DNA of 41,670 nt from Aquibium carbonis (GTDB lineage Bacteria > Pseudomonadota > Alphaproteobacteria > Rhizobiales > Rhizobiaceae), in contig NZ_RWKW01000017.1 in the NCBI RefSeq assembly GCF_003970795.1, positions 1-41,670 on the forward strand, given 5' to 3'. Shown one piece after another: positions 1 through 31,829 of this stretch (the first letter of the stretch is position 1; each line of letters opens with the position of its first letter). A model generated the notes under the pieces. That model saw nothing but the letters and a program-made list of their open reading frames with translations. It was not told the origin of the DNA and made no database searches. The position numbers were made by a program, and so were the translations under genes.

Positions 1-6
1 TCACGC

Positions 7-198
7 TCATTTTCCTCGCCGCCCCGAAGGACAAGGCCACCTCGTCGGCCAATCGCGCGCCCCCTTGCGCGGCGCATAGCCGCCGGGCAGGTCCGAGCGG
101 TCGAAATGATAGCGGTTGCCGTCGTCGCCATTGGCAAAGCCGATGCCCCGCTCGGCGTCGAAATAGAGAACTTCCCCCTGCACCGTCCGTCCTTTCAA
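7..198 (-). pseudogene. Cold-shock-domain protein, apparently frameshifted at its 3' end
   Basis: The first 45 or so residues read as an OB-fold cold-shock domain: a strand ending in EVLYFDAERGIGFANGDDG, then RYHFDRSDL. Such domains bind single-stranded nucleic acid. After the PRKGA motif the open frame turns into a Trp/Pro/Arg-rich tail unlike the family. An adjacent frame continues plausibly as GARLADEVALSFGAARKMSV and runs off the window. The switch lies at a five-G run near 59-64, so a one-base indel, real or from sequencing, would explain it. The ATG start at 198 is preceded by a G-rich stretch. The gene may originally have carried a C-terminal membrane or DUF1294 part outside the window. 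I see the domain directly; the frameshift is inference. Confidence 0.5.
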
Positions 199-1175: not shown

Positions 1176-1347
1176 TGCCGTTCCTTCCCGAAGAGAGGTT
1201 TCCCCCTGCAGATGGGTCGTCTTGCCGGCGGGTCAAATCACGCCGGGTTGATGACGGCGCTGGCCTGGCCCGGCGCGTTTGCATCTTGAAGGGCGCATCG
1301 CTAGATCGGACGCGACCCGCGCGAAGGGCGACAGGGAGCGTTCGGAC

Positions 1348-2298
1348 ATGATTTCACGCGAAACGGTGACGGCGCAGGCCGAGCGGCTGGGGCGATCGGC
1401 TGTCTTGCTGGCGAACCGAACCAGGGATGCCGCCGCGCCGCGTCTGAAGCTCCTCGCCTTCAACACGTCGGCGGCCTTCCGTTTTGCCCGCCGCCGGCTG
1501 GAGGCACGGCCCGCATTGCGCGACCGCCATGAGCCGTGGCGTCGTTTCGCGGTGGTGACGATCGCCCTGGTGGCCTTCGCGGCCGCCTATTTCGATCCCG
1601 TTTTTGCGGCCGTGCCGCGTGCATGGCGGAGCCCCGTCCACGGGCTCGGCCAGACGATCACCGATTTCGGACTTTCGGGGCCCTACCTGATCCCCCTCGC
1701 GATCTTCCTGATCTGGACCGCGACCGTCGACTGGTCGGCCTTCGCGCGGCGCTCGCGGCTGCACCTGTTCAACGGGACGGCCGCGGCCTGGTACGCCTTC
1801 ATCTCGATCGCCGGATCGGGCCTGCTGGTGACGCTGCTGAAGCAGCTGTTCGGCCGCGCCCGGCCGAGGCTGGCCGGTGAGCTGGGCGCCTTCCATTTCG
1901 ACCCCTTTTCGTTCGATGCCGCGCATCTGAGCTTCCCGTCGGGCCATGCGACCACGGTTGGCGCGGTATGCTTCTGCATCGCGATCCTGTTTCCGCGCCT
2001 GCGGCTGGCCGCCATCATCGCCGCGCTCTGGTTCGGGTTCTCGCGCTCGGTGGTCGGCGCCCACCACCCGAGCGACGTGGTCGCGGGCCTCCTGATCGGC
2101 GGCTGGTTCGCCTATTGGGTGGCGATCCGCTTCGGCAAGGCCGGGCTGGTCTTCCTGCTGCCGGAGGGACGCTTGCCGCAAAGACGCCGATCGTTCCACC
2201 TGCTGCCGCTCGACGCGCACCGGAGGTTCAGGCGGTTCGTCCACCGGACGGAGGCGCAGGCGCACCGCCTGTCGGGAAAGCGTTTCGACGGGCTCTGA
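1348..2298 (+). CDS. PAP2 superfamily membrane phosphatase
   Basis: A 316-residue membrane protein of the type 2 phosphatidic acid phosphatase superfamily, which removes phosphate from lipid or isoprenoid phosphates at the outer face of the inner membrane. All three active-site motifs are present: K165...R172-P173 (KX6RP), PSGH at 197-200, and SRSVVGAHHPSD (SRX5HX3D) shortly after. About five membrane segments surround them. The N-terminal 70 residues are basic and cytosolic, and the Arg-rich tail after the last segment is longer than usual. I took the ATG at 1348 (GGGAG 8 bases upstream) rather than a TTG at 1279. Possible substrates include undecaprenyl diphosphate or lipid A phosphate; the sequence alone does not decide. 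Confidence 0.85.
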   Translation: MISRETVTAQAERLGRSAVLLANRTRDAAAPRLKLLAFNTSAAFRFARRRLEARPALRDRHEPWRRFAVVTIALVAFAAAYFDPVFAAVPRAWRSPVHGLGQTITDFGLSGPYLIPLAIFLIWTATVDWSAFARRSRLHLFNGTAAAWYAFISIAGSGLLVTLLKQLFGRARPRLAGELGAFHFDPFSFDAAHLSFPSGHATTVGAVCFCIAILFPRLRLAAIIAALWFGFSRSVVGAHHPSDVVAGLLIGGWFAYWVAIRFGKAGLVFLLPEGRLPQRRRSFHLLPLDAHRRFRRFVHRTEAQAHRLSGKRFDGL

Positions 2299-2328
2299 TT
2301 GACTTTGCGGCACGGTTGTGGCTATGAG
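2299..2328 (+). promoter_or_regulatory. Likely sigma-70 promoter for the asd leader transcript
   Basis: TTGACT at 2299-2304 and TATGAG at 2323-2328 are separated by 18 bases. Transcription would then start near 2335, just before the GGAG at 2341, leaving an untranslated-plus-leader RNA of about 247 bases ahead of asd. It sits immediately after the PAP2 stop codon. The boxes are seen in the sequence; promoter activity is inferred. Confidence 0.5.
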
Positions 2329-2350
2329 CAGCACGTTTGCGGAGCATGAC

Positions 2351-2476
2351 ATGCGCGGCCTGACCATGGCGTTTCTTTCCTTCGGCCCGACCGGCTTCCT
2401 TGCCGGCTTCGGCCGCATGCGCGCGCTCGTCTCCCCCACCAAAACCGCGGCCAAAACGACGACCACCACGGTCTGA
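2351..2476 (+). CDS. Candidate threonine/lysine-rich leader peptide upstream of asd
   Basis: A 41-codon ORF starting at ATG 2351 with GGAG seven bases upstream. Its last twelve residues read TKTAAKTTTTTV: seven Thr and two Lys just before the stop. It lies 105 bases upstream of asd, which makes the common precursor of threonine, lysine and methionine. That is the architecture of an attenuation leader such as the enterobacterial thr leader. An in-frame ATG at 2324 would overlap the predicted -10 box, so 2351 is preferred. There is no T-tract terminator downstream, so a classical terminator/antiterminator switch is not evident. It could also be a chance ORF; coding by conservation has not been tested. 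Confidence 0.45.
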   Translation: MRGLTMAFLSFGPTGFLAGFGRMRALVSPTKTAAKTTTTTV

Positions 2477-2489
2477 CCACCTCGGCCTG

Positions 2490-2573
2490 CTCGCCCCTCT
2501 CCCGGGTCCGGCCCGGGGAAAATCCGCCAAGGCCGGCGGGTTCACCAATCCAGGCGAGAGGCGAGGACAGGAG
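2490..2573 (+). promoter_or_regulatory. asd: Structured 5' leader RNA ahead of asd
   Basis: Between the leader-peptide stop and the asd start the RNA can fold into an outer stem. Bases 2490-2501 (CTCGCC, two bulged C, TCTC) pair with 2556-2565 (GAGAGGCGAG), enclosing two small hairpins: CCCGGG/CCCGGG at about 2501-2517, and CCGCC/GGCGG at about 2524-2539. The closing stem ends at the asd ribosome site (GGACAGGAG, 2565-2573), so folding could affect translation initiation. No U-run follows either hairpin. The pairings are seen by eye and no folding energy was computed. Confidence 0.4.
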
Positions 2574-2581
2574 TTTCCAAG

Positions 2582-3616
2582 ATGGGTTTCAAGATCGCAG
2601 TGGCCGGCGCGACCGGCAATGTCGGGCGCGAGATGCTCAACATTCTCGAGGAGCGCGGCTTTCCGGCGGACGAGGTCGTGGCGCTGGCGTCGCGCCGCTC
2701 GATGGGCACGGAAGTGTCCTATGGCGACAGGACGCTGAAGGTGAAGGACCTCGCGAACTACGACTTCTCCGACACCGACATCTGCCTGATGTCGGCCGGC
2801 GGCAACGTCTCCAAGGAATACTCGCCGAAGATCGGCCGGCAGGGCTGCGTCGTGATCGACAACTCCAGCGCCTGGCGCTACGACCAGGACGTGCCGCTGA
2901 TCGTGCCGGAGGTGAACCCGGACGCCATCACCGGCTTCACCAAGAAGAACATCATCGCCAACCCGAACTGCTCGACCGCGCAGCTGCTGGTGGCGCTGAA
3001 GCCGCTGCATGACGCAGCCACCATCACGCGCATCGTCGTGTCGACCTACCAGTCGGTGTCGGGCGCCGGCAAGGACGGCATGGACGAGCTCTTCACGCAG
3101 ACCCGCGCGGTCTATGTGGCCGATCCGGTCGAGAGCAAGAAGTTCACCAAGCGCATCGCCTTCAACGTCATCCCCCACATCGACGTCTTCATGGAAGACG
3201 GCTACACCAAGGAAGAGTGGAAGATGATGGCCGAGACGAAGAAGATGCTCGACCCGAAGATCAAGCTCACCGCGACCTGCGTGCGCGTGCCGGTCTTCAT
3301 CGGGCACTCGGAAGCCGTCAACATCGAGTTCGAGAAGCCGATCTCGGCCGATGAGGCACGCGAGATCCTGCGCGAGGCGCCGGGCTGCCAGGTGATCGAC
3401 AAGCACGAGGACGGCGGCTACATCACGCCGGTCGAATCGGCCGGCGAGGATGCGACCTTCATCTCGCGCATTCGCGAGGACATCACGGTCGAGAACGGCC
3501 TGTCGCTCTGGATCGTCTCCGACAATCTGCGCAAGGGCGCGGCCCTGAACGCCATCCAGATCGCCGAACTGCTGGTGGCGCGCGGCCTGATCCAGCCGAA
3601 GAAGAAGGCGGCCTGA
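2582..3616 (+). CDS. asd: Aspartate-semialdehyde dehydrogenase
   Basis: A 344-residue cytosolic enzyme that reduces beta-aspartyl phosphate to aspartate semialdehyde with NADPH. This step is shared by lysine/diaminopimelate, threonine and methionine synthesis. The N-terminal Rossmann motif GATGNVG is at 9-15, the catalytic cysteine C130 lies in NPNCSTAQ, and the active-site histidine H242 in FIGHSEA. Length and motifs match the family from end to end. The ATG at 2582 follows AGGAG with 9-base spacing. It is preceded by a possible leader peptide and structured RNA and is followed by a convergent gene, so it is probably monocistronic. Confidence 0.97.
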   Translation: MGFKIAVAGATGNVGREMLNILEERGFPADEVVALASRRSMGTEVSYGDRTLKVKDLANYDFSDTDICLMSAGGNVSKEYSPKIGRQGCVVIDNSSAWRYDQDVPLIVPEVNPDAITGFTKKNIIANPNCSTAQLLVALKPLHDAATITRIVVSTYQSVSGAGKDGMDELFTQTRAVYVADPVESKKFTKRIAFNVIPHIDVFMEDGYTKEEWKMMAETKKMLDPKIKLTATCVRVPVFIGHSEAVNIEFEKPISADEAREILREAPGCQVIDKHEDGGYITPVESAGEDATFISRIREDITVENGLSLWIVSDNLRKGAALNAIQIAELLVARGLIQPKKKAA

Positions 3617-3668
3617 CCGGCTGCTGGCAGGGCCGGACTCCACCCTCGACATCGACGCCCGAGGCGGG

Positions 3669-3688
3669 GCAGGCGGAACGCCGCCTGC
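3669..3688. terminator. Hairpin between convergent asd and extensin-like gene
   Basis: A perfect 8-base-pair inverted repeat, GCAGGCGG/CCGCCTGC with an AACG loop, sits between two convergent stops and abuts the stop at 3689. It lacks a T-tract on either side, so if it terminates transcription it does so weakly or with Rho. Confidence 0.4.
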
Positions 3689-4531
3689 TCACTGGCAGAG
3701 CCGAAAGCCGCTGCGGCGCGCGGCGACGTCCAGGTGCAGGTGATCGTCGTGGAAGGCGTCCGATCCCGGACCGAGCACGGTGGTGAAGTGCAGGCAGGCG
3801 CCCGCCTGCACCGTGCGCTGGAAGGCTTCCTCGATGTTGCCCTGGCCCTTGCGCGGGACGATCGTCAGCGGCTCGTGGCCGTCGAACAGGAAGCGGCTGA
3901 TGTCGATGGCGCCGCCCGTTGCGTGTTCCGATATTCTGGCACCCGGCTGGCCGTTGCGACCCCGGCAGACATAGGTCGAGGCGTGCGCGAGACCCGTGAG
4001 CGCAACGCCTTCGCCGAGCGCGCGTGCGGCCGGCTGCGCCACGTCGCGCACCCAGCGCGCCGTGGCCAGCGCGACCGGGCAGGTCACCTGCGTGTCCGGC
4101 TCCAGCGTGACGCCGGGCGCCGGTTCCGGCAGGTCGTAGGGCTGCGGCACCCCGCAGCCGCCCTCCCCCTCGATCGGGTCCAGCCGCATGAACACCGCGC
4201 CGAGGCGGGTGAGTTCGGCTTCGCAGGCCGCGAGCTCGGCGTCCGACAAGGGTTCGGGCGGCGGCGCATCGGCGATCGGGTCGGGCTTTTTCTCGGCTGC
4301 GTCGGGAACGGCCTCGTCATCCTTTGCCTGATCGGCTTCGGCCTCGTCGTCCGGCGGCGTGGTCTCGTCCGGGCTGGCCGGCGCGGCGGGACCGGCGTCC
4401 GGTTCGGCTGGCGAGCGCGCCTCGGCCGGTCGCGGATCGTCGGTCGGCAGCGGCGCCTCGTCCGGGAGGTCGACGGCCGCCATCACGAGGAGAAGTGCGG
4501 GCAGCAGGAAGAGACCCTTGGAAAACCGCAT
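3689..4531 (-). CDS. Extensin-like C-terminal domain protein, exported
   Basis: A 280-residue protein. A signal peptide (MRFSKGLFLLPALLLVMAAV) is followed by a low-complexity linker of about 90 residues rich in Pro, Ala, Asp and Glu. The Extensin-like_C domain then starts near ELAACEAELTRLGAVF. Family marks include the paired cysteines (EGGCGVPQPYDL, VTCPVALATA, TYVCRG, AGACLHF, FRLCQ) and the motif SEHATGGAIDISRF, which resembles D,D-peptidase/hedgehog-like zinc folds with DDHLHLDV near the end. It is probably periplasmic and may act on peptidoglycan, though that role is not proven for the family. I chose the ATG at 4531 because it begins the signal peptide; the TTG at 4609 adds an unlikely extension. 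Confidence 0.85.
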   Translation of the reverse strand: MRFSKGLFLLPALLLVMAAVDLPDEAPLPTDDPRPAEARSPAEPDAGPAAPASPDETTPPDDEAEADQAKDDEAVPDAAEKKPDPIADAPPPEPLSDAELAACEAELTRLGAVFMRLDPIEGEGGCGVPQPYDLPEPAPGVTLEPDTQVTCPVALATARWVRDVAQPAARALGEGVALTGLAHASTYVCRGRNGQPGARISEHATGGAIDISRFLFDGHEPLTIVPRKGQGNIEEAFQRTVQAGACLHFTTVLGPGSDAFHDDHLHLDVAARRSGFRLCQ

Positions 4532-31617: not shown

Positions 31618-31682
31618 CGCCCAGCCTTGGACGATGGACGGCGCGGGTTCAATCCGGCAGGCGACGGATAGATGACGATCCA

Positions 31683-31829
31683 CGACAACCGGTGGAAAAG
31701 TTGATCCCGGGTGCCTACAACGTAGGTGGGCGCCGTATGAGAGGACCCACGGGTCCCCCCAGGGACAGCTCCCTTGGGATCAGTAAGGCCCCGGGGAATG
31801 TTATTCCTGCCGCGAAGCGCAGACCGCCA
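31683..31829 (-). ncRNA. ssrS: Likely 6S RNA
   Basis: The gene-free stretch upstream of 5-FCL reads, on the minus strand, as a long GC-rich hairpin-forming RNA. Notable parts are GATCCCAAGGGAGCTGTCCC, CCTACGTTGTAGG (a perfect small palindrome) and CCCGGGATCAAC, sequence I associate with alphaproteobacterial 6S RNA. A TATATT at 31840-31835 would place the 5' end near 31829. Position ahead of the 5-FCL gene is the conserved context for ssrS. The ends are approximate and no covariance model was run. 6S RNA binds RNA polymerase holoenzyme as an open-promoter mimic. Confidence 0.7.

Follow-up and report, generated by a model that had tools for sequence, protein, structure and literature searches.

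The asd gene of Aquibium carbonis, which encodes aspartate-semialdehyde dehydrogenase, is preceded by a short open reading frame (ORF) with a threonine- and lysine-rich end, and this ORF, at 2351–2476, is not a chance frame. With moderate confidence, we regard it as a translated leader peptide that couples asd expression to the speed of the ribosome over its Thr and Lys codons, and it is probably a built-in sensor of these amino acids. The leader itself is real, conserved and partly known; what is new here is its breadth, its codon bias and the RNA elements that accompany it. Positions refer to the window, the whole 41,670-nt stretch that was analyzed (contig NZ_RWKW01000017.1), and features are on the + strand unless stated otherwise.

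A sigma-70-like promoter, read from the letters, occupies 2299–2328 (−35-like TTGACT at 2299–2304, an 18-nt spacer and −10-like TATGAG at 2323–2328) and is followed by a GGAG ribosome-binding site at 2341–2344, 6 nt 5′ of the leader ATG. The leader ORF, which resembles the SEP5 ORF discussed below, comprises 41 codons plus TGA (ATG 2351–2353, TGA 2474–2476) and translates as MRGLTMAFLSFGPTGFLAGFGRMRALVSPTKTAAKTTTTTV; at E 0.001 this peptide matched no Pfam or NCBIfam family. The proposed regulatory codons, chosen by positional conservation, span 2438–2470 and read ACC AAA ACC GCG GCC AAA ACG ACG ACC ACC ACG (T K T A A K T T T T T). The ATG of asd (2582–3616) lies 105 nt 3′ of the leader stop, and the gene was assigned to asd_B by TIGR01296 (472 bits vs a cut-off of 324.2), with NF011456 also above cut-off and matches to PF02774 and PF01118. 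An in-frame GTG at 2318, upstream of the leader ATG, falls within the promoter and is an unlikely start. A consensus promoter scan returned no promoters within 1500–4000 of the window, the site at 2299–2328 giving no match because TATGAG breaks the scan's rule of T at position 6. Immediately upstream, a gene for a PAP2-superfamily phosphatase (PF01569) spans 1279–2298 (+), and its stop codon at 2296–2298 directly abuts the leader promoter. The minus strand carries two terminator-like sites at 2447–2473, inside the leader Thr/Lys codons, where the A-rich Lys codons appear as T runs; these sites might play a role in antisense transcription, or they may simply follow from the codons themselves. 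Elsewhere in the window, 6S RNA (RF00013) was found at 31673–31828 (−), scoring 75.2 bits where gathering requires 46.4.

The leader, its Thr/Lys codons and its promoter are conserved within the family. Our family set held 85 loci, composed of the best 80 of at least 576 relatives and five genomes of the window's genus, the window's own included; 84 of the 85 are distinct, since L001 and L085 are the same DNA (one contig taken twice). An ORF with a Thr/Lys-rich end precedes asd in all 85 (84 distinct), and in 84 of the 85 a start with a Shine-Dalgarno-like core opens an ORF of 34–52 codons. The arrangement TTGAC-spacer-TA is present at the place of the leader promoter in 81/85 loci, with 1.2 expected from shuffles, and the distance from leader to asd ranges from 98 to 165 nt. 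Leaders end in KTT(T/A/I)KTV in 67/85 cases and in KTTx(K/T)TV in 74/85. Numbered back from the stop, V occupies −1 in 85 of the 85, T occupies −2 in 81, −5 in 83 and −6 in 84, and K occupies −3 in 75 and −7 in 80. The window's leader ends in KTTTTTV, and the ends seen across its genus are KTTTTTV, KTTTATV, KTTVTTV or KTTATAV; Lys at −3 is absent from this genus, and its leaders are therefore poorer in Lys than those of most relatives. In ungapped comparisons anchored at the stop, mean pairwise identity across the 85 loci was 0.818 over the last 8 residues vs 0.162 at −24 to −15. Thr codons in family loci alternate between ACC and ACG, the third base drifting while the amino acid is kept; in a Rhizobium/Agrobacterium/Sinorhizobium set of 24 sequences, the DNA of the cluster is almost frozen, third codon positions included. 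Such conservation of codons suggests that the window ORF is translated. Promoter, GGAG and the 41-codon ORF, with Thr and Lys concentrated at its end, lie in the window as the first-pass annotation had described, and its proposal that relatives should keep the Thr/Lys run, the start and the Shine-Dalgarno while the rest drifts is borne out by the 84/85 starts and by the two identity values.

Because leaders were picked by a script that took the most Thr/Lys-rich ORF upstream of asd at each locus, a control with other ORFs matters. We scored the last 15 residues of 5021 other ORFs of 10–130 codons on both strands of the same 85 loci. At least four Thr were present in 39 of these control ORFs vs 85/85 leaders, at least six Thr in 0/5021 vs 47/85, and a Thr+Lys count of at least eight in 0/5021 vs 76/85. 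Among 1715 ORFs from 30 loci of the order, 16 had at least six Thr, and every one of them was an asd leader.

Lysine codons in the leaders are distinctive. Leader Lys is mostly AAA and asd Lys mostly AAG: within the last 15 residues, AAA accounts for 249 of 268 leader Lys codons vs 59 of 1919 in asd of the same family loci. The corresponding figures for the order set described below are 60/79 in leaders vs 58/439 in asd, the latter counted in 20 of the 35 asd genes. This preference for AAA could reflect either a tRNA effect or a constraint on the RNA.

To follow the leader outside the family we used two kinds of search, with the order, Hyphomicrobiales (Rhizobiales), defined from the names of near relatives. 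In 397 genomes, a strict pattern matched 18 of 21 family members, each time before asd, and missed two genomes of 1.5–1.6 Mb and one other. No Thr leader is seen in the two small-genome members (L131 and L138, from G377 and G168), and all that a third family member (L115, from G353) shows is a remnant-like end, SLTKKTSIS, at a distance of 87 nt from asd. Outside the family the strict pattern was discarded, its 6/376 genomes equaling the 6/376 of the reversed control, with 3 of the 6 before asd. A second criterion, an ORF ending 40–200 nt before asd with at least four Thr in its last 15 residues, was applied to 70 hand-chosen genomes in which every one of 51 other families is represented at least once. 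This order set was enlarged by further members of f28 and f41 once pattern hits had turned up there, others came from f2, f18, f23, f35 and f42, and three family members were taken because the pattern was absent from them; some of the upstream stretches came from fragmentary contigs. Leaders with at least four Thr were found in 35/70 genomes (1.05 expected from shuffles), which is not a random-sample rate because the genomes were hand-chosen; per family the figure is 25/51. At least six Thr were present in 27/70, with none in 2800 shuffles. The 35 leaders, representing 35 of the 67 genomes outside the family, end 69–150 nt before asd, and none of them is without Lys in its last 15 residues. 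Leader DNA and peptide differ outside the family, but the Thr and Lys codons persist. In the genomes sampled from the other 26 of the 51 families, no Thr-rich asd leader was found. Beyond the order such leaders are rare, with at least four Thr in 3/28 loci (0.3 expected), the 28 being the best-scoring of 94 genomes with a match. Similar ORFs are seen there at L187 (G401), ending PTTTKKTKTVA 109 nt before asd, and at L205 (G504), ending AKTGKTTTGV 134 nt before asd; either deeper ancestry or independent origin could account for them. Upstream of hom, aspartokinase and thrC of the same genome (three loci), no coding-strand ORF had at least four Thr in its last 15 residues.

Three RNA elements recur between the leader codons and asd: P1, a local G+C-rich hairpin and a pairing termed B:D. 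In P1, a GGCC inside the Thr/Lys codons (2449–2452) can pair with a GGCC just 3′ of the leader stop (2484–2487). The final 48 nt of the ORF carry GGCCA in 75/85 loci and the stretch upstream of these in 8/85, and GGCC follows soon past the stop in 74/85. In the window P1 consists of only 4 pairs and is missing from the minimum-energy fold. Element B, a C/U-rich stretch 3′ of the stop (2480–2502), is complementary to element D, GGCGAGAGGCGAGGACAGGAG (2553–2573), which includes the asd Shine-Dalgarno AGGAG at 2569–2573. The local hairpin, CCCGGG-UCCGG-CCCGGGG (2501–2518), is present in the fold of L081, and folding gives a further hairpin, P4, AAUCCGCC-AAGGCC-GGCGGGUU, at 2521–2542; some relatives carry a U tract 3′ of P4, which the window lacks.

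Co-variation was assessed by comparing pairing between each sequence's own halves with pairing between halves from other sequences, for eight region pairs in three sets: 22 hand-picked Rhizobiaceae representatives, a cross-family set made up of the window and a single sequence from each family, and a mixed set. For the B:D regions (+12..36 × asd −45..−2), z was −4.24 in the cross-family set (0/1000) and −3.62 in the mixed set; within the 22 Rhizobiaceae representatives these regions did not co-vary (z −0.04). Shifting to a wider first region, +3..30, gave −1.60 across families and −1.18 and −1.04 in the other sets. For P1, z was −3.61 within the 22 Rhizobiaceae representatives, and order-wide it was −0.08. 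The local hairpin pair scored −2.45 and −2.06, and three control region pairs ranged between −1.36 and +1.76. An anti-Shine-Dalgarno right at the stop (+3..16 vs the asd Shine-Dalgarno) was not supported, at +0.16, −1.45 and −0.71. B and D thus co-vary across families, a pattern that suggests control of translation.

Alignment left 81 rows after L052, which has a long gap, and identical rows were dropped, and from these we drew sets A1 (54 sequences) and A2 (24 sequences), omitting L002, L023 and L030 for their longer gaps. In the 54 sequences, 9 of 22 modeled pairs change on both sides, compared with a shuffle mean of 3.2 (0/500), including 4/6 pairs of helix 2 and 3/4 of helix 4, the local hairpin. 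This is only moderate evidence, because slid partners still give 6 to 8 both-side changes and their covariation scores, 0.043–0.087, bracket the observed 0.082. P1 is paired in only 68.4% of cells of the same alignment, and the unconstrained consensus fold of these 54 sequences did not choose B:D, returning another, weak structure. The consensus fold of the 24 Rhizobium/Agrobacterium/Sinorhizobium-type sequences contains P1, the hairpin and a GCUCUCU:AGAGAGC pairing just before the asd start, with 0/28 pairs changed on both sides.

The window's own minimum-energy fold pairs 2480–2495 with 2553–2566 in a helix that ends 2 nt short of AGGAG, and the best two-strand duplex joins 2486–2495 to 2560–2571, covering AGG of the Shine-Dalgarno. 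Against shuffles, the energy of the B:D duplex is modest (median z −0.86 in 85 sequences and −0.75 in 35), and that of P1 has a median z of −0.96 and +0.46, respectively. When the Thr codons were masked as if by a ribosome, accessibility of the asd Shine-Dalgarno showed no real rise in the 85 sequences, moving from 0.331 to 0.344 (a gain above 0.1 in 20, a loss in 19), or in the 35 order sequences, where it moved from 0.441 to 0.439 (a gain in 5, a loss in 9). Where the Shine-Dalgarno was unrecognized, mostly in Rhizobium-type sequences, a default position stood in for it. With the modeled ribosome, the probability of B:D changed in the expected direction in the 24-sequence set (0.521 to 0.420) but in the wrong direction in the 54-sequence set (0.285 to 0.350). 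We take masked folding as a weak negative, because equilibrium folding ignores folding during transcription.

On the + strand between leader and asd, the window contains no intrinsic terminator. Under a relaxed rule, a terminator-like P4, with a 5–6 bp G+C stem and then a U-rich tract such as UUUUCUCC, was found in 23/85 family loci vs 0.6 expected from shuffles; the window is not among them, and the other 62 family loci and all 35 order leaders gave none. Hairpin and U tract sit 33–43 nt before asd in the 23 loci (L003, L005, L013–L017, L024, L029, L033, L038, L039, L041, L043–L050, L055 and L057), which come from Mesorhizobium, Aminobacter, Phyllobacterium, Corticibacterium, Brucella and one unclassified MAG. 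A rule applied to the whole stem returned 0/85 and 1/35 (L136), where 2.4 and 0.6 were expected. Rfam gave no match at gathering score at the leader element in the window, and a search of nine loci with E up to 1 yielded seven weak matches, none above gathering. One of these, at L081:2571–2625 with E 0.44, lies within asd. The only match to a leader family among the nine loci was a sub-threshold His_leader (29.4 bits vs 49, E 0.54) at L130:1337–1479, in the asd leader region of a member of the order.

In the model that we favor, passage of the ribosome over the Thr/Lys cluster would read the charging of Thr and Lys tRNAs. If Thr or Lys ran short, the ribosome would wait on the cluster and block pairing of the leader end with sequence 3′ of the stop, and the downstream RNA would shift to a form that permits asd expression. 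If both were plentiful, the leader would be finished and B would pair with D, hindering the asd ribosome-binding site. What we infer is stalling, the sign of the response and translation initiation as the controlled step. We prefer translation initiation over transcription as the point of control because the window, and by the relaxed rule 35/35 order leaders too, lack a terminator; in the group of Mesorhizobium, Aminobacter, Phyllobacterium and Brucella, control of transcription is possible.

The strongest competitor is transcription attenuation of the enteric thr type, in which a stalled ribosome would stop P4 from forming as an intrinsic terminator before asd. The G+C stem and U-rich tract in 23/85 loci, where 0.6 were expected, speak for it, and rhizobial trp is described as having a leader-peptide attenuator, rnTrpL. 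However, the window lacks the U tract, the relaxed rule gives 0/35 order leaders, the whole-stem counts are 0/85 and 1/35 with 2.4 and 0.6 expected, and the window's element matches none of the Rfam families; we consider it unlikely. The first-pass annotation had drawn on this enteric logic; its leader peptide with selected Thr/Lys codons is supported, but the window has no intrinsic terminator, and the RNA evidence points weakly to the asd ribosome-binding region instead. Rho could take the place of an intrinsic terminator if the C-rich untranslated stretch served as its loading site, with exposure set by the position of the leader ribosome. The 27 nt at 2477–2503 contain 17 C and 4 G, and the gap of 98–165 nt in the 85 loci is in keeping with such a site, but the same C-rich stretch is also engaged in predicted pairing, and we judge Rho-dependent attenuation to be rather improbable.

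It could also be that the ORF is translated and merely aids translation of asd, or makes a peptide with a job of its own, the Thr/Lys run being a by-product of constraint on the RNA. The near-frozen third positions in the 24-sequence cluster DNA are what RNA pairing would demand, and tagged SEP5 was found as a soluble protein in S. meliloti (PMC10117765). Outside the family, however, the Thr and Lys codons persist although DNA and peptide change. Identity at −24 to −15 in the 85 family loci is 16%, and a gap of about 105 nt seems long for simple coupling; we give this explanation very little weight. Sensing of Thr and Lys by the leader ribosome, acting on translation initiation of asd, remains our preferred reading.

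Part of this leader has been described before. The first-pass annotation knew of no such leader for a stand-alone alphaproteobacterial asd, and this is out of date: SEP5 of Sinorhizobium meliloti, reported by Hadjeras 2023 (PMC10117765), is presented in that paper as a translated, Thr/Lys-rich and possibly leader peptide. Its translation was shown there by Ribo-seq and Western blot, and its sORF was placed in the 5′-UTR of an 'aspartate dehydrogenase' gene, with six codons for Thr and three for Lys toward its 3′ end. Leaders at our Sinorhizobium loci (L062, L065 and L074) end in SKTTAKTTTKTV, with the same Thr and Lys counts, and SEP5 would be the Sinorhizobium form of the asd leader. The range given in the paper, 'conserved only in Sinorhizobium', is too narrow: we find the leader family-wide and in 25/51 other sampled families. 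The paper is not known to give an RNA model. Apart from SEP5, we found no description of an asd leader in the portions available of the open-licence literature (including PMC4117421, PMC1273637, PMC4833913, PMC2573895, PMC2965389, PMC3766115 and PMC7143759).

Among other attenuators, peTrpL/rnTrpL of S. meliloti, a 14-aa leaderless ORF before trpE, is described as a transcription attenuator, and it is likewise a rhizobial leader peptide before an amino-acid gene.

The enteric thr leader (ThrL, Rfam Thr_leader) lies ahead of thrABC, uses codons for Thr and Ile and has an intrinsic terminator at its end. Like ThrL, the asd leader is enriched in codons for an amino acid that its pathway yields; unlike ThrL, it combines Thr with Lys, precedes asd alone and has no terminator in the window. 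In translational attenuation of the erm type, stalling is drug-dependent. Here too a helix would enclose the ribosome-binding region of the next gene, but stalling on the asd leader would come from uncharged tRNA, and folding did not reproduce the release.

Synthesis of threonine, methionine, lysine and diaminopimelate, a cell-wall precursor, depends on asd, and its control therefore bears on how well rhizobia and their soil-dwelling and host-associated relatives grow. A leader that appears 'genus-specific' can be far older when judged by codon content instead of peptide similarity, and searching by codon content offers a simple route to further leaders of this kind. We tentatively propose, as a broader reading that is somewhat less likely than not, that these loci form an order-wide and previously unrecognized attenuator class, in which a dual Thr/Lys-sensing leader controls the branch-point gene asd at translation initiation in about half of the sampled families; the peptide, the letters of the RNA and even whether a terminator is present would turn over, and AAA codons, scarce in asd, would act as the Lys sensor. 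If this is true, two end products would steer one branch-point enzyme through one short ORF, and the output step would vary between families on one conserved sensor.
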